Assembly (NCBI RefSeq): GCF_016900375.1 | Contig: NZ_JACJKB010000002.1 | Coordinates: 62,001 to 126,000, forward strand | Length of the DNA: 64,000 nucleotides | Source of the DNA: Collinsella tanakaei | GTDB lineage: Bacteria; Actinomycetota; Coriobacteriia; Coriobacteriales; Coriobacteriaceae | Direction: 5' to 3' | Part shown: positions 46,965-63,334 of the stretch, one piece after another | Position numbering within the stretch: the first letter of the stretch is position 1 | Layout of the letters: each line of letters starts with the position of its first letter | Position numbers and translations under genes: made by a program | The notes under the pieces: model-generated | What the model saw: only the letters and a program-made list of their open reading frames with translations | What the model was told of the DNA's origin: nothing | The model's database searches: none

Positions 46965-48659
46965 CTAGCTCAGCAGCTCACGACCAGCAGCCTCGATGGC
47001 ATCGATCTGTGCATCGGCAGCGGCGGCATCGACACCCTTGGCGAAGATGTAGAGCTTGATCTTGGGCTCGGTACCGGACGGACGGACGATGGCCTTGTCG
47101 CCACCCTCGAGGTCGAACTCGATGACGTTCGCCTTGGGCAGGCCGTTCACGCCGGTCTCGTAATCCACAACGCCCTCGACCTTGGCGCCGGCGATCTCGG
47201 TCGGCGCGGTCTCGCGCAGGCCGGCCATGATGCCAGCCATCTTGGCGGCACCGTCGGCACCCGGGTAGCTCAGCGAGATGGTCTTGTTGTGATAGTAGCC
47301 ATACTTCTCGTACAGGGCGCGCATGGCCTGGACCAGATTGATGCCCTGCAGCTTGTAGTACTGGGCCATCTGGCAGATAAGCATGGAGGCGTTGACGGCG
47401 TCCTTATCGCGCACGTGGTCGCCGGACAGATAGCCGTAGCTCTCCTCGAAACCGAAGATGAAGCGATCGACCTCGCCGGCGTCGGACAGGCCGGTGATGA
47501 TGTCGCCGATGTACTTGAAGCCGGTCAGGCAACGGCGCAGCTCGAAGCCGTACTCCTCGGCAAGGGCATCGACCATGGCGGAAGACACGATGGTGGTCAC
47601 GGCAACCTTGTTCTTGAGGTCCTCGCCGCGGGCGGCGCGCATCTTGCAGATGTAGTCGAGCAGCAGGACGCCCATCTCGTTGCCCGTGAGCAGCGTGTAA
47701 TCGTCACCGTCGGCGCAGGCGACACCCACGCGGTCGGCATCGGGGTCGGTCGCGAGCAGCAGGTCGGGCTTGACCTCCTGGCACAGATCGATGCCCTTCT
47801 GCATAGCCTCGCGAATCTCGGGGTTGGGATACGGGCAGGTCGGGAAGTTGCCGTCCGGATCCTTCTGCTCGGGAACGATCGTGATGTCGGTGATGCCGAC
47901 CTTGTTGAGCACCGTGGTAACCGGGATGAGGCCGGTGCCGTTGAGCGGGGTGTAGACGAGCTTCAGAGGCGCTGCCTCAACCTGCTCGGGAGTCAGGGCA
48001 CTCACTGACTTATCCACGACGGCATCGTAGTATGCGTCGAGGCACTCGTCGTCGATCCACTTGACCAGACCCTGAGCCACAGCCTCGTCGAAGTCCATCG
48101 TCTTGACGTCAGTGAAGGGATTCGTGGCCTCCATAGCGGCGGAAATTGCAGCGGCGGCCTCGCTCGTGATCTGGCAGCCGTCGGGACCATAGGCCTTGTA
48201 GCCGTTATAGGGGGCAGGATTGTGGCTCGCGGTCATGCAGATGCCGCCGGAGCACTTGAGGTAGCGCGTCGCCCACGACAGGGTCGGAACCGGGGAGATC
48301 TTGGGGTACACGTAAGCGGTCACGCCGTTAGCCGCGAGGATAGCGGCCGTGGTCTTCACGAACAGCTCGCCCTTGTTGCGGCTGTCACGTGCGATGGCGA
48401 CCGTGGGGTTCTCGAACGTGGCGTTGAGGTAGTTCGCGAAGCCCTGGGTGGCACGACCGACCGTATAGATGTTCATACGGTTGGTACCGGCGCCGATAGT
48501 GCCGCGCAGGCCAGCGGTGCCGAACGCGAGGTCCTGGAAGAACGCGTCGGTGATAGCGTTCTCGTCGCCGGATTCCTTCATCTGCGTCAGCTCAGCGAGC
48601 AGCTCCTCGTCCTTGACGTTAGCGATCCATGTTTCAAGGAGCTCATGTACGTCAGCCAT
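46965..48659 (-). CDS. phosphoglucomutase/phosphomannomutase
   Basis: The protein is 564 residues of the alpha-D-phosphohexomutase superfamily, PGM2-like. The phospho-Ser is in TASHNP near 145, the metal loop is DPDADRVGVA, and the sugar loop is GFEESYGYL. The C-terminal phosphate-binding RPSGTEPKIKLY is intact. It interconverts hexose 1- and 6-phosphates in central and cell-wall sugar metabolism. The gene is monocistronic. Confidence 0.92.
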   Translation of the reverse strand: MADVHELLETWIANVKDEELLAELTQMKESGDENAITDAFFQDLAFGTAGLRGTIGAGTNRMNIYTVGRATQGFANYLNATFENPTVAIARDSRNKGELFVKTTAAILAANGVTAYVYPKISPVPTLSWATRYLKCSGGICMTASHNPAPYNGYKAYGPDGCQITSEAAAAISAAMEATNPFTDVKTMDFDEAVAQGLVKWIDDECLDAYYDAVVDKSVSALTPEQVEAAPLKLVYTPLNGTGLIPVTTVLNKVGITDITIVPEQKDPDGNFPTCPYPNPEIREAMQKGIDLCQEVKPDLLLATDPDADRVGVACADGDDYTLLTGNEMGVLLLDYICKMRAARGEDLKNKVAVTTIVSSAMVDALAEEYGFELRRCLTGFKYIGDIITGLSDAGEVDRFIFGFEESYGYLSGDHVRDKDAVNASMLICQMAQYYKLQGINLVQAMRALYEKYGYYHNKTISLSYPGADGAAKMAGIMAGLRETAPTEIAGAKVEGVVDYETGVNGLPKANVIEFDLEGGDKAIVRPSGTEPKIKLYIFAKGVDAAAADAQIDAIEAAGRELLS

Positions 48660-50305
48660 TGCTTTGAACCTTTCCCTTGCCGTTACGAAACGTTAGTTCA
48701 CCCCGCTTTCGCGCGGGGCGGGACTGCGAATGCACGCATCACCTCGGATAATACGCCATCTAGGTAAAGTTTATGGCGGCATACCGCCCGACGGACAAAA
48801 TGGCCGGTAGGCGTTTCCCGTGTCTCCGTTTTGTCTGCACCATCCTCCGCCTCTCCCCCATCGTCGATCGCCCTGGTTTCGCTCGCCGTGATCTGGCTTT
48901 GATTTCCAAGCTGTCCAGTCTTGGGCGCTACCGATACTTCTGTTTGCCCTTCACCTGCCTGCGAATTGCCTGATTGCATCCATTTGATTCGGTCATCTGG
49001 CGTAATCGTAAGATTCCAATGATTAAGTCGAGCAATCACTTCACAACCGATTCATTGCAATGAATCACACTGAACTATCGATGGTTCGGTTGGTTTTTTG
49101 AGTTCCGCACTACTCAATCTCGATTTCCGATAGCCCGGTGGGGGATTCACCTTTGCGTCGGTTGGACTCAGTCCCCCTTCGCTCGACATCACTTGCCGTA
49201 CCGCACCATTTCGACTGGGCCGCATAATCGATCAAAAATCAGTGCTGCACGAGAGCGCAACGCACCATGACAGTTGGGATGATTGATTGCTTGAAATCTA
49301 CCTTGTCTGTCTCTGTGACTGAATCCAATTGATTTCATAGTGGTCGTCGCGAGAAGAACGTGATTGCAAGGGCCCATCATGGCCTACTGAACATCTGCGT
49401 CACAATCGAACCAGACGTTTGGTTTTCTGATTACCCAGATTCAACTTCGGAGATCTGTGCCTGTAGATCCAGTGTCCCGTTACTAAGCAGTGACGTTTGA
49501 CCCGCACCCTACATGACTCCTTCCCGTCAGTCGGCTCAGCTCATTAACCTTTACTCGGCCGTGCCACATGGTCTCGTTTTCCCAAAAGGTCCGACTCGTT
49601 CGAATCCCTTCTGCGACGAATTCGGTAGAGACACTGTGACACAGCGCGCCCAGCAGTCATCGATCCCATCAGAACCGACCGAACCACATATCGGTCCATT
49701 TCAAGTTCTGGGTCAATAGGACTCAATCATTGATCCCGACGCTGAACCCACTCCTCTACAGGAAGCCTCACCGCCCACCCTCATCCATCGTTCACCCCCT
49801 GAATCGATTCCTGGAGCACCGCTATTTCGATGGCCCTCCCTTGCGTCCAAAGCGAATCGCGATTCTGAATCAATCAATGGAACCCAACTCAGCGATTGCA
49901 CCTGACTCAATATGGAAGATGGGCAGACCGAATCAGATCAGAAGTATCGGCAGCACGACAATATCCAATCAGGTCGTGCATCGAATTCATGAACGAATCC
50001 CATCAAGCTAACACCACCGATTCATGGTGAAGAGGGGCATGCAAACCAGGTGCGTTTTCATCGATTCGCACCACATATAGATCGCTTCGAACTCCACCTC
50101 ACGTTGACCGCATCGAGAATTCATATACGACTCATTCATCAATCGCACCAGCTAGCAGTTAGCTTAAACGATGCGAGGATTCAATCCATTCGACCCATTC
50201 TTTCTATTGCACTGAGCCATGACGTAGTTATCAGGATATAATCGCAGGAAGAATAGGATTGCGTGATGCAGTCATGACCGTGTCGAGAAGTAGGGTAGGG
50301 GAACC
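48660..50305. other. gene-free, lower-GC tract dense in GATTC/GAATC words, candidate centromere
   Basis: No supported gene was found in 1.6 kb. From about 48970 to 50260 the words GATTC or GAATC occur about 19 times (examples at 48986, 49049, 49062, 49801, 49806, 49854, 49861, 49867, 50019, 50063, 50178), and GATTG or CAATC about a dozen more. Several form dyads: 49049-49066 is an 18-bp perfect palindrome. The composition is clearly lower in GC than both sides. The tract abuts the start of the HTH/coiled-coil gene, for which it also holds the promoter. The first 300 bases hold only the pgm leader and a CCCCGC...GCGGGG hairpin near 48702. Confidence 0.55.
49049..49066. repeat. 18-bp perfect palindrome with GATTC ends
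   Basis: GATTCATTG is followed directly by CAATGAATC. It is the best-formed dyad of the GATTC-rich tract; shorter ones lie at 49801-49810 (GAATCGATTC) and 49854-49865 (GAATCGCGATTC). Confidence 0.85.
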
Positions 50306-50794
50306 GTGCCAACCATCAAAGAGATCGCTGATGCCACTGGACGTGGTAAGTCGACCGTAAGCCGTGCCGTAAAGGAACTGGGGCTTAGGGAGTCTGGACA
50401 TGCCAAGGCTGATGGAGCGCGCGGCGCGCTGATTATCGATGCTGAGGGTGCATCGATGCTGGCGGATTACCTTACGAAGAATGTCGAAGCAAAACCGCAG
50501 GTAGACGATGACGAGCAGGGCTCCCAGCCCCATATCGATATCGAGGCGCTGGTCAGCGTCTACAAGGAGCGCATCTACGACCTGAAGCAACAGATCGAGG
50601 GTCTGAACACCCAGCTTGCCGCAAAGGACGAGCAGATCAAAGAGCTCTCCATGGCCTTGGACAATGCGCAGAACGCAGCGAAGGACGCGCAGGAGGAAAC
50701 CAGGCGTTCTCACGATAGGGTGGTCCTGATGGCGAGCGCTGGAGTTTGGGAGCGCCTCACTGGATTCAAGGGACTTCTTGAGTCAGGCGAGTAA
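50306..50794 (+). CDS. HTH plus coiled-coil DNA-binding protein, Par-like
   Basis: The protein is 162 residues. Residues 3-25 (TIKEIADATGRGKSTVSRAV) form a LacI-type helix-turn-helix with the basic helix RGKST. A polar linker (about 30-70, DDDEQG) leads to a long heptad-rich coiled coil (about 72-140, YKERIYDLKQQIEGLNTQLA...) and a short C-terminal end. It has no ligand domain, which separates it from LacI regulators. The same order, N-terminal HTH and coiled coil with a repeat-rich region in front of the gene, is seen in the single-protein Par of staphylococcal plasmid pSK1. The start is GTG behind GTAGGGG. A role in partition or nucleoid organisation is inference. Confidence 0.75.
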   Translation: MPTIKEIADATGRGKSTVSRAVKELGLRESGHAKADGARGALIIDAEGASMLADYLTKNVEAKPQVDDDEQGSQPHIDIEALVSVYKERIYDLKQQIEGLNTQLAAKDEQIKELSMALDNAQNAAKDAQEETRRSHDRVVLMASAGVWERLTGFKGLLESGE

Positions 50795-51081: not shown

Positions 51082-51157
51082 TGGTGGAGGTTAGGGGGAT
51101 CGAACCCCTGACCTCAGGCTTGCAAAGCCCGCGCTCTCCCAGCTGAGCTAAACCCCC
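51082..51157 (-). tRNA. tRNA-Ala (TGC)
   Basis: The minus strand reads a full cloverleaf: acceptor GGGGGTT/AACCTCC, D arm GCTCAGCTGGGAGAGC, anticodon loop with TGC, T arm GGGGTTCGATCCCC, and an encoded CCA (51082-51084). It lies downstream of tRNA-Ile as in other actinobacterial origin regions. Confidence 0.96.
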
Positions 51158-51163
51158 GGTAGC

Positions 51164-51208
51164 AATAAACACCCCACCGGCGACTCGGCTCTCGGTGGGG
51201 TGTTTATT
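51164..51208. repeat. perfect 16-bp inverted repeat between the two tRNAs
   Basis: AATAAACACCCCACCG (51164-51179) and its exact reverse complement (51193-51208) enclose 13 nt. It starts 6 nt before the 5' end of tRNA-Ala and 14 nt after the CCA of tRNA-Ile. It may end transcription or guide processing. Confidence 0.88.
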
Positions 51209-51221
51209 TCAAAAGAAAAAG

Positions 51222-51298
51222 TGGTGGACCTGACAAGATTCGAACTTGTGACCTCCCGGTTATCAGCCGGACGCTCTAACCAACTGAGCTACAGGTCC
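51222..51298 (-). tRNA. tRNA-Ile (GAT)
   Basis: Acceptor GGACCTG/CAGGTCC, D arm GCTCAGTTGGTTAGAGC, anticodon loop CTGATAA with GAT, T arm ACAAGTTCGAATCTTGT and encoded CCA. No rRNA genes flank it, although this tRNA pair is often an rRNA spacer in other bacteria. Confidence 0.96.
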
Positions 51299-60322: not shown

Positions 60323-61426
60323 CTAGATACGGACCGGCATGACCAGGTACAGATAGTTGATCTTGTCGTAGCTCTTGAAGATACCCGCCTGGCTGTAGCT
60401 CTGCAGCTCGAGCGTGAGCTCCTTCTCGCGCGAAAGCACGTTCAGGCAGCCGAAGATGTAGTGGTAGTTGAAGGCGATGACGCCCGAGGCGCCCTCGACC
60501 TCGACATCGATGGTCTCCTGCGCCTGGTCTTGATCGTTGGAGATGGCGGAGAGGCCCATCGTGCCGGTCTCGGCCGAGATCTCGAACTTCACGGCGGAGT
60601 TGGCCTGGGCGACCACCGCGACGCGCTTGAGCGCGGCCGAGAACGACTCGACGTCGATCTTGACGGTCGTGGCGCAGGTCGCGGGCAGCAGCGCCTTGTA
60701 GTTGGGGTAGTTGCCCTCGATACGACGGGACACATAGGTCGTGTTGCCCGCAGCGAAGACGACCTGCGTGTCGGTGGAGCCGATCATGATGGTGCCCTGG
60801 CCGCCCATGATGTTCAGGGCGTCGTTGAACGCCTCAGCGGGCACGTTCAGCTCGAAACTACCCTCGAGCGAGGAGGTCTCGACCTGCGTGTCACACACCG
60901 CAAGACGATACGAGTCGGTGGCGACCAGACGCACCGTGTTGTTCTCGACCGTCATGTACACGCCGTTCAGCACCGGGCGGTTCTTGTCCGTCGAGGTCAC
61001 GCGCCATACGCGGCCGACCATCTCGGACAGGATATCGCACGGCAGCTCGACCGAGCGCTCGAGAGCGATGGTCGGGAACTCGGGAAAGTCGGTCGGATCG
61101 AGCGTGTTCAGCTTGAACGAGCTCTTCTCGCAGGTGATGCTCACCTGGCGTTCGGCGATCTCGAACGACACGGGCGCATCCGGCAGCGTCTTGGTGATGT
61201 TGGAGAGCATCTTGCAGGGGATGACCGTCTCGCCCTCCTCTTCCACACGCGCGGCGATGCGATGGCGGATAGAGATGGTGTAGTTGGAGGTGTGGAACTC
61301 AAGCACGCCGTCGGCGGCTTTGATGAGCACGCCCGAGAGGATGGGGAGCGTGCTTGCGCTCGCAACACCCTTCATGACGATGCTGAGCGCCTCGGCGAGT
61401 GCCGGCTGGCTGACGGTGAATCTCAT
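60323..61426 (-). CDS. dnaN: DNA polymerase III sliding clamp
   Basis: The protein is 367 residues with the three repeated clamp domains, opening MRFTVSQPALAEALSIVMKG and ending SYDKINYLYLVMPVRI with the canonical VMPVR motif. The dimer ring holds DNA polymerase on DNA. It begins 18 nt into the AT-rich side of the dnaA-dnaN gap. Confidence 0.95.
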   Translation of the reverse strand: MRFTVSQPALAEALSIVMKGVASASTLPILSGVLIKAADGVLEFHTSNYTISIRHRIAARVEEEGETVIPCKMLSNITKTLPDAPVSFEIAERQVSITCEKSSFKLNTLDPTDFPEFPTIALERSVELPCDILSEMVGRVWRVTSTDKNRPVLNGVYMTVENNTVRLVATDSYRLAVCDTQVETSSLEGSFELNVPAEAFNDALNIMGGQGTIMIGSTDTQVVFAAGNTTYVSRRIEGNYPNYKALLPATCATTVKIDVESFSAALKRVAVVAQANSAVKFEISAETGTMGLSAISNDQDQAQETIDVEVEGASGVIAFNYHYIFGCLNVLSREKELTLELQSYSQAGIFKSYDKINYLYLVMPVRI

Positions 61427-61438
61427 GTGCCATCGGTC

Positions 61439-61666
61439 CTTCCTTTTATATCTCTATCTATATATCTATATCTAACAATAGTAATAAGTAGGTGGACGGT
61501 GTGGACTACTGGTAAAACGCCTGCTCAGGATAGGCGAAGTTCTCATTTCACCCCTGTGGATAACCAGAGTTGTTTTCCACAGGCCCAGCCGAGCGCTCTC
61601 GTTGTCCCCGGTCCCCATGCATCTTCCCACAGGTTTTCCCTCAGTATTCCCATGGTTTTCAACATG
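61439..61666. other. candidate chromosomal replication origin (oriC)
   Basis: The dnaA-dnaN gap has an exact DnaA box on the minus strand (TTATCCACA, read as TGTGGATAA at 61555-61563), near-matches TTTTCCACA (61573) and CTTCCCACA (61623), and a weaker pair GTGGACGGTGTGGACTA near 61492. On the other side lies an AT-rich stretch (61445-61490) with TATCTATATATC repeats and the trinucleotide run TAG-TAA-TAA-GTAG, as expected for an unwinding element. Confidence 0.75.
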
Positions 61667-63334
61667 TTATGACTTGATGAGGATAACGTTTTTGAGTTGC
61701 TGAAGCTCCTCGTTGAAACGGGCGTCCTCCTTCATCTTGCTCTCCACGACCTCGAGGCTGTGGATGACGGTCGTATGGTCGCGTCCGAAGGCGGCTCCGA
61801 CCGCCTTGAGGGACATCTCGCACATCGTGTTCGTGAGGTAGACGGCCACATGGCGGGGGAACGCGATGTTCTTCGAGCGCTTGCGGCCGATCATGTCCTC
61901 GTGGCTTACATGATAGAACTCCTCGACGACACTCTGGACGGTGTCGACGCGCACGACCTTATGGGCGGTGTCGAAGTACTCGTCGGCGATGGCGTCGATG
62001 TCGCTTGCCGTGAGCTCGCCACCCGCCTGCTCCTTCTCGTAGGACAGGCCGGCGCAGCGCTCGCAGAAGCTCTCGAGCTCGCGAATGTTGTTGCCCGAGA
62101 TCTCGGCCATATGGCGCAGGTGGTCATCGGTCAGATGACCCTCCTCCATGCCGATGCCGTCGAGCAGCGATGCCCCCGCACCATCGACGGGGCGCGCCGC
62201 GACGGCGCGGATGGTGTGCTCGTAGTAGTTCTTGAGGATGGCGTACTTCATCTCAAAGCCCGGTTCAGACACGAGGCACAGCATGCCGGAGTTGAACCGG
62301 CTCGTCAGGCGTTCATCCATACCGAGTTTCTTGGGGGCGCGGTCGCTGGCGATGACGATCTTCTTGTTCTCGCGGATGAACTCGTCGACGAGCTGGAAGA
62401 AGAACTCGATGGACGCCTGGCGGCCGATGATGTTCTGGATATCGTCGATGATCAGCACGTCGGCGGCGCGGTACTCGCGCATGATCGGTTCGCCCGGCCC
62501 GCGCTGCGCACCGAGGTCGCGCATGTAATCGTCGATATACGCCTGGCTGTTGGCGTACTTCACGCGGATGTAGGGCTTCTCGGCGGCAAGGTAGTTCTTG
62601 ATGGCGAACAGCAGGTGCGTCTTGCCGAGGCCGGAGTTGCCGTAGATGAAGAGGCTCGTGCACTGGCCGGGCTCCTCGGCGAAGGCGGCGAAGCGCACGG
62701 CCGACTGGTAGGCATGCTTGTTCTCGTCGCCGAAGACGAAGTTCTCGAACGTGTACTTGGCGTTGATGCCGACGGCCGGGTAGCTCTCCTCATGGGGCTG
62801 CGGTTCCGGCTCGTGCACCGACACGGGCTCAGGCTCGGCCGCCCCGCTCGACTTGAGGTTGGCGATCAGGCGCTTGAACTGGTCGTTCGATATGGTGTTG
62901 TTGACGTTCACGCGGTGCCCGTCGCCTGCGTCGGCGGCGAGCATCGGGCCCGTGTGACGTGGCATGTTTGCACCCGAGGCGGTCGCCTTGGCCGGTTCGG
63001 CGGCTGGTTCTGCGGTCCCGCGGGCAACGGGTGCCGCTGCGCCAGCGTTCGCCACCGGCTCGGTGCGCGACGCCGGGGCGCCCGCGACCTGCGGCACGGT
63101 GATGTTCAAGGCGATCGGGGCGAACGCGATCTCCTCCAGATAGCGTTCGATGATCGGCCGCTGCTTCACCAGATACGAGTAGGCGAACCTGCTCGGCGCC
63201 TCGATGGTGAGGGCGTCTTCGGTGAGGTCGGTCGCCCGCGCGCTGGCGAGCATGTTGATCAGCCGCGCATCCATGCCGTCCCGTTGGCAGAACGCGATGG
63301 CGTCGTCGAGGAGCAGTCGTGCCTCGCTCTCCAT
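61667..63334 (-). CDS. dnaA: chromosomal replication initiator DnaA
   Basis: AAA initiator protein of 555 residues. Domain I (1-90) binds helicase partners; a long Ala/Pro/Glu linker spans about 95-185; the AAA module has Walker A GNSGLGKTHLL near 231 and Walker B VLIIDDIQ; domain IV ends with the DnaA-box reader GRDHTTVIHS near 515. The upstream gene ends only 19 nt before its start. Confidence 0.96.
   Translation of the reverse strand: MESEARLLLDDAIAFCQRDGMDARLINMLASARATDLTEDALTIEAPSRFAYSYLVKQRPIIERYLEEIAFAPIALNITVPQVAGAPASRTEPVANAGAAAPVARGTAEPAAEPAKATASGANMPRHTGPMLAADAGDGHRVNVNNTISNDQFKRLIANLKSSGAAEPEPVSVHEPEPQPHEESYPAVGINAKYTFENFVFGDENKHAYQSAVRFAAFAEEPGQCTSLFIYGNSGLGKTHLLFAIKNYLAAEKPYIRVKYANSQAYIDDYMRDLGAQRGPGEPIMREYRAADVLIIDDIQNIIGRQASIEFFFQLVDEFIRENKKIVIASDRAPKKLGMDERLTSRFNSGMLCLVSEPGFEMKYAILKNYYEHTIRAVAARPVDGAGASLLDGIGMEEGHLTDDHLRHMAEISGNNIRELESFCERCAGLSYEKEQAGGELTASDIDAIADEYFDTAHKVVRVDTVQSVVEEFYHVSHEDMIGRKRSKNIAFPRHVAVYLTNTMCEMSLKAVGAAFGRDHTTVIHSLEVVESKMKEDARFNEELQQLKNVILIKS

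Follow-up and report, generated by a model that had tools for sequence, protein, structure and literature searches.

The gene at positions 50306..50794 and the gene-free tract directly before it in the window (the whole 64,000-nucleotide stretch of Collinsella tanakaei DNA that was analyzed) probably constitute a chromosomal, origin-proximal single-protein centromere or anchoring system of the Par/RocS/RacA kind that works alongside ParABS, but it should be noted that there are no binding or segregation data. No description of a comparable system in Collinsella, or elsewhere in the Coriobacteriia, was found in a search of the open-licence literature. An earlier reading of this DNA, made from the sequence alone, had suggested a single-protein partition locus; the present analysis supports that suggestion, but binding of the tract by the protein, and segregation or anchoring by it, remain unproven.

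Genomic setting and composition of the tract

The gene has a GTG start, lies on the forward strand, and encodes a 162-residue protein of the Par/RocS/RacA type. It is separated by an intergenic region (48660..50305, no strand assigned) from the conserved flanking gene pgm (phosphoglucomutase/phosphomannomutase; 46965..48659, reverse strand), and its other flank is formed by tRNA-Ala and tRNA-Ile (51085..51298, reverse strand), which are conserved in all seven orthologous loci. Read from the right, the order is dnaA (61667..63334, reverse strand), the marker of the origin region, followed by dnaN, recF, gyrB, gyrA, a bifunctional nuclease gene, tRNA-Ile, tRNA-Ala, the gene, the tract, and pgm. 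In seven Collinsella genomes, the gene sits between pgm and tRNA-Ala/Ile at 11–13 kb from dnaA, consistent with the ~13 kb previously claimed. The locus is chromosomal and not plasmid-borne, being syntenic beside gyrAB-recF-dnaN-dnaA in seven of seven species, and no NTPase partner is present at it, the neighbors being pgm, tRNA-Ala/Ile, the bifunctional nuclease gene, and gyrA. DnaA-box-like sites peak at 61000–62000 of the window, around the dnaA-dnaN junction, which is the likely position of oriC.

A complete ParABS system, consisting of ParA, ParB, and five parS-like sites that precede and surround parAB, is located at C2:129963-132523, just outside the window; it is a separate locus on the other side of dnaA, ~18–20 kb from the gene. 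Because ParA, ParB, and the five parS-like sites lie beyond dnaA, the array is an addition to ParABS, and the system proposed here is not the sole segregation device. The low-GC parS region has no GATTC array comparable to that of the tract. The tract was also considered as a ParB-related site, a possibility that was rejected because the parS cluster is elsewhere and, under codon shuffles, the coding DNA of parAB shows mild enrichment at most.

The intergenic region is a GATTC-rich, centromere-like array of a degenerate palindrome, with a GC content of 51% against a comparison value of ~63%. It contains 18 GATTC/GAATC words, all within 48986–50178, and 14 GATTG/CAATC words. The sequence-only reading had given about 19 of the former, which nearly holds, and many of the latter, and had put the number of GATTC words expected by chance at two or three; this is right for the genome average (1.27 per kb, predicting ~2 for the tract) but low for the AT-richer tract, whose own dinucleotides predict 6.7, although 18 or more were reached in none of 1000 shuffles. 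The absence of a genome-wide excess of GATTC in this tract would have refuted the claim. An excess was found: in the background of 842 kb, or roughly one third of the genome, the densest 1 kb is in the tract, with 14 words, compared with 8 in the runner-up, and among GC-matched 1.4-kb windows outside the tract in the same 842 kb the highest count is 6.

Searches of the tract detected no Rfam families (the two tRNAs are the sole matches at the locus), no true repeats (the tandem and long-repeat search gave only degenerate, chance-like short pairs), no regularity in the distances between GATTC words and no helical phasing of them, no parS sites, and no DnaA-box-like sites; the last result led to the rejection of a role as a DnaA-titration site. 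The array is bordered by two alignable blocks. One, of ~150 bp (48660..48815, reverse strand), lies 5' of pgm, can be aligned between species, and represents the pgm promoter or leader, outside the array. The other, of 46–48 bp just upstream of the gene (50229..50275, forward strand), can be aligned with the closest species, contains TATAAT, and is probably the promoter of the gene, although it was not picked up by a generic promoter scan.

The palindromic motif and its association with the gene

A bias is seen in the flanking bases of GATTC as well, and it lengthens the word to a pseudo-palindrome; the full motif is the degenerate 11-bp palindrome AYCGAWTCGRT, present at ~40–50 sites in each long tract. 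Each site is weak, with about 5 bits of information. The 26 strongest sites in the window tract (at least 7 bits), scored with a model derived exclusively from the six other species, span 48973..50194 in both orientations, with irregular spacing and without helical phasing; examples are TTTGATTCGGT at 48983, ACCGATTCATT at 49046, TCTGAATCAAT at 49864, ACCGAATCAGA at 49927, and ATCGATTCGCA at 50060.

The tract is kept by its motif and not by alignable sequence. Between the seven species, the tracts can be aligned only at their two promoter ends (~150 bp beside pgm and, for the closest pair, ~48 bp before the gene), and the middle is unalignable even where the flanking proteins are 91–98% identical. 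GATTC nevertheless ranks 1, 1, 1, 2, and 3 in over-representation among the 512 five-letter words in the five long tracts, the window tract being the one with rank 3. Leave-one-out models, trained on six species and tested on the seventh, identified 50, 53, 42, 8, 47, 13, and 48 sites in the seven tracts, compared with shuffle expectations, in the same order, of 16.1, 15.0, 15.0, 1.5, 14.8, 2.6, and 16.4; in each of the seven, the observed count was reached in at most 1 of 500 shuffles. A model built without the window sequence peaks at the window tract in its own genome, with 22–25 sites per kb at 7 bits versus 7–8 elsewhere. The gap between pgm and the gene is short, at 374 and 384 bp, in two of the orthologous loci; the 384-bp gap (L013 in genome G043) is motif-poor, and a further enriched stretch lies in the gap beyond pgm, ~2–3 kb upstream of the gene, giving the impression that the array has moved. 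Each of the seven Collinsella orthologues thus has a conserved array next to it, which is weak in the one with further sites beyond pgm. A lack of conserved motif density beside orthologues was the other outcome that would have refuted the earlier suggestion, which therefore stands unrefuted on this count also.

The array co-occurs with the gene, and Collinsella that lack the gene lack the array. The gene is present in 7 of 45 genomes of the genus, its own included, with orthologues that are 76–92% identical and in an identical position each time; a search for related loci in named genomes recovered these six relatives and no others, under the names Collinsella tanakaei, C. ihumii, and Candidatus C. 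stercoripullorum. In the 1.5 kb before pgm, the motif score has a z of 5.1–10.8 in the five long-tract genomes and of 2.7 and 1.7 in the two short-tract ones, compared with −1.2 to 2.4 in 17 gene-less genomes, and the motif is not raised before the nuclease gene in gene-less genomes. One gene-less species (G024) has a GATTC-rich stretch upstream of pgm (L151, 8800–11600) that adjoins an integrase-like gene. It was rejected as a gene-less carrier of the array: despite 9 GATTC per kb upstream of pgm, the motif-model z is 0.9, and the neighbor is integrase-like. It is possible that this origin-proximal site also takes insertions.

Beyond Collinsella, the order contains distant homologues of the protein (28–34% over the alignment) in further genera and families. 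In the ten genomes in which such a homologue shares a contig with dnaA, the two are 23–36 kb apart, two of the ten distances being based on the assumption that the contig is circular and begins at dnaA. Their neighbors differ, with tRNA-Lys and tRNA-Gly in three cases and no pgm. Counts of GATTC words upstream of the distant homologues showed nothing, because the motif differs there. In a second genus, represented by 11 species, unsupervised palindrome discovery upstream of the gene yielded TGGTCGACCA, with 145 sites compared with 64.6 expected and a leave-one-out z of 10.1; the same procedure applied to shuffled data gave a z of 0.2. When 20-kb regions were scanned with models trained on other species (7-bit threshold), the densest 400 bp lay directly upstream of the gene in six of the six regions tested. 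It should be noted that some of the gaps in this genus are short and partly related, which leaves the eleven species short of full independence. That one and the same protein family lies beside a different palindromic array in another bacterial family is the strongest argument for regarding protein and array as a pair.

More distant relatives (32–33% identity) were encountered on two small contigs, L017 (G007:C27, 5.9 kb) and L018 (G041:C42, 14 kb), which carry MobA/MobL or primase-helicase genes and are likely to be plasmids or mobile elements; the C terminus of the L018 relative, RGLFGRLLG, is a clear MinD-like end. A further observation concerns C2:143.9-156.3 kb (L073-L074) of the same genome as the window, ~18–31 kb beyond dnaA, where the density of strong motif sites is elevated by a factor of about three to four. 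This region holds a repeated stretch like ACTGAATCGGTTCGATGCGGT, and these may be secondary sites or a coding repeat.

The protein and its relatives

The protein is homologous to pSK1 Par. In an AlphaFold2 model, it consists of a winged HTH (residues 1–58, with helices 4–11, 15–25, and 27–30, a hairpin at 33–44, and a helix at 46–58), a disordered linker, a coiled coil at 79–143 with pLDDT mostly above 90, and a short helix at 145–152 predicted with low confidence; the overall confidence is moderate, with a pLDDT of 75.8 and a pTM of 0.33. The best Foldseek match in the PDB is the complex of the pSK1 Par DNA-binding domain with its centromere (8csh; TM 0.84 on the target, rmsd 2.0, prob 1.00, E 0.02), followed by the RacA-DNA complex (TM 0.66–0.70). 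A single-sequence search of the PDB with the window protein returned only coiled coils, and an alignment profile was therefore needed. The profile of 25 Coriobacteriia homologues, compared with all PDB sequences, places pSK1 Par (8csh) at the top with an E of 1.7e-5 and a collinear match of residues 1–130 on 1–130, but part of this score comes from the coiled coil, with composition bias.

The DUF536 model, which is common to Par and RocS, matches residues 101–133 with 16.7–18.8 bits, below the cut-off of 20.7, although this is still the best DUF536 match in the genome. Within the DUF536-like stretch, Gln103, Gln110, and Gln122 are invariant in the seven species but are not kept in all distant homologues. 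At the C-terminal end, VLMASAGVWERLTGFKGLL is nearly invariant in the seven species and has a hydrophobic moment of 0.48, the helix at 145–152 being of low confidence; the amphipathic C terminus VWERLTGFKGLL, at the end of the 162-residue protein, is listed as invariant. No ligand domain and no ParB domains were detected in the protein. These results bear unequally on what had been claimed for the protein: its length of 162 residues, a long coiled coil, and the absence of a ligand domain hold, as does its likeness to pSK1 Par, which is placed first by both profile and structure searches, but the assignment of the HTH to the LacI type fails, since the model and the fold matches indicate a winged HTH of the Par/RacA type. 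The LacI HTH match covers 21 residues and is sub-threshold (17.0 bits compared with 27; E 0.005), and membership of the LacI family was rejected on this ground and for want of a ligand domain.

Several previously characterized systems resemble the Collinsella locus. With pSK1 Par (PDB 8csh), it shares the winged HTH fold, the coiled coil, the 130-residue collinear match, a single gene without a dedicated NTPase, and a repeat array directly upstream. The pSK1 Par centromere is a short set of clear repeats, whereas the Collinsella array extends over ~1.3 kb with 40–50 weak palindromes, and the Collinsella system is chromosomal, beside oriC and a full ParABS. In RocS, an HTH, a coiled coil, DUF536 with three essential glutamines, and a MinD-like amphipathic helix follow in that order (PMC11500499; PMC13042908). 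RocS of Streptococcus pneumoniae resembles the Collinsella protein in being chromosomal and in having a winged HTH and a coiled coil, with a possible likeness also in the below-threshold DUF536-like stretch, its three glutamines, and the C-terminal amphipathic helix predicted with low confidence, but S. pneumoniae has no ParA, whereas Collinsella has both ParA and ParB. Binding by RocS was assayed on ordinary pneumococcal fragments, and no cognate centromere is described in the relevant passages (PMC11500499). RacA of Bacillus subtilis, the second-best fold match, likewise combines a winged HTH with a coiled coil and recognizes sequence-specific ram sites that are dense near the origin (PMC6593407), but the ram sites are scattered over the chromosome, in contrast to the one compact array beside the Collinsella gene, and RacA acts in sporulation and binds DivIVA. 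The two chromosomal proteins, RocS and RacA, are functionally as close as pSK1 Par. Chromosomal ParABS is similar in pairing an origin-proximal centromere with a DNA-binding protein; it differs in that the Collinsella gene product has no ParB fold and no linked ParA-like ATPase, and in that the motif is unrelated.

Proposed role and rival explanations

In the proposed mechanism, the winged HTH of a coiled-coil dimer would bind the many weak AYCGAWTCGRT palindromes in the upstream tract, both the binding and the dimerization being inferred, and the bound protein would build a dense nucleoprotein patch 11–15 kb from dnaA. The coiled coil and amphipathic C terminus would then hold this patch at the membrane or pass it to a partner, as has been proposed for RocS and pSK1 Par; membrane binding is again an inference. 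Anchoring of the patch may help to place or separate new origins alongside ParABS, an inferred segregation role, and the promoter-near sites would probably autoregulate the gene too. Several points count against this reading: binding and segregation data are lacking, the DUF536 match stays under its cut-off, the motif is weak, irregular, and unphased, unlike the discrete repeats of plasmid centromeres, two orthologues have short gaps, one of them with a poor upstream array, most Collinsella live without the gene, which only 7 of 45 carry, and a complete ParABS is present in the same genome.

The most serious rival is that the protein binds the array but serves in nucleoid organization or in control of replication initiation, acting as a nucleoid-associated protein of local reach, with an origin-proximal patch that compacts or insulates the DNA around the origin. 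This role, which the sequence-only reading had offered as an alternative, is still possible but unlikely. In its favor are the proximity of the gene to dnaA, the ability of RacA, a close structural match, to condense DNA (PMC6593407), the degenerate, unphased sites, which suit a spreading or bridging protein, and the mild elevation of motif sites elsewhere near the origin (C2:144-156 kb). However, the array is compact and tracks the gene instead of being spread over the chromosome, the tract has no DnaA-box-like sites, and the closest relative with a solved structure is a partition protein from a plasmid, bound to its centromere. Plain autoregulation, in which the array would be an oversized operator through which the protein represses pgm and its own gene, could be invoked because the array lies between two divergent promoters, and Par proteins are thought to autoregulate. 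It appears very unlikely: ~50 sites over 1.3 kb far exceed what an operator needs, the second genus and the gene-less Collinsella both show the array tracking the gene and not pgm, and the protein has no ligand domain but has a long coiled coil and an invariant C terminus.

There is even less support for the view that another factor, such as a GANTC methyltransferase or an unrelated DNA-binding protein, targets the array, with the gene as a bystander. GATTC and GAATC are GANTC words, and GANTC is enriched (130 compared with 51), but the GATTC excess (100 compared with 32.5) is far above that of GACTC (30 compared with 18.8), and the flanking bases extend the palindrome; GANTC methylation was rejected, as the middle base is not free. 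Moreover, in the second genus, whose version of the protein differs, the corresponding position holds another palindrome. Finally, the array might be an artefact of chance or of the composition of AT-rich, gene-free DNA, as the tract has a GC of 51% and the motif partly reflects low GC, which is why the expectation is 6.7 and not 2. This is all but excluded by the shuffles, the GC-matched windows, the cross-species leave-one-out models, the shuffled-data control, and the gene-less genomes, as well as by the low-GC parS region without a comparable array; these tests already refute it, unless the tracts share hidden ancestry.

A single-protein centromere or anchoring system thus remains the preferred interpretation. 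A bolder form of it, which we consider as likely to be wrong as right, is that the Coriobacteriia carry a second, ParA-independent chromosomal centromere system, in which a Par/RocS-type protein has an origin-proximal palindromic array of its own, that motif and protein have been altered jointly from one genus to the next, and that new origins are tethered to the membrane beside ParABS. Single-protein partition is known for plasmids, in the form of Par, and the example of RocS makes clear that a chromosome, too, can be segregated by a relative of Par; by what means a lone protein achieves segregation in the absence of an ATPase, and which DNA it selects, is an open question in the field. A chromosomal member with a defined, compact, and evolving array provides a direct handle on this question, because the site can be moved, deleted, or transferred to a plasmid. 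If the interpretation is correct, one chromosome would contain two origin-proximal centromere-like systems, and the Coriobacteriia would offer a naturally occurring case in which a DNA-binding protein has changed in step with a dense array.
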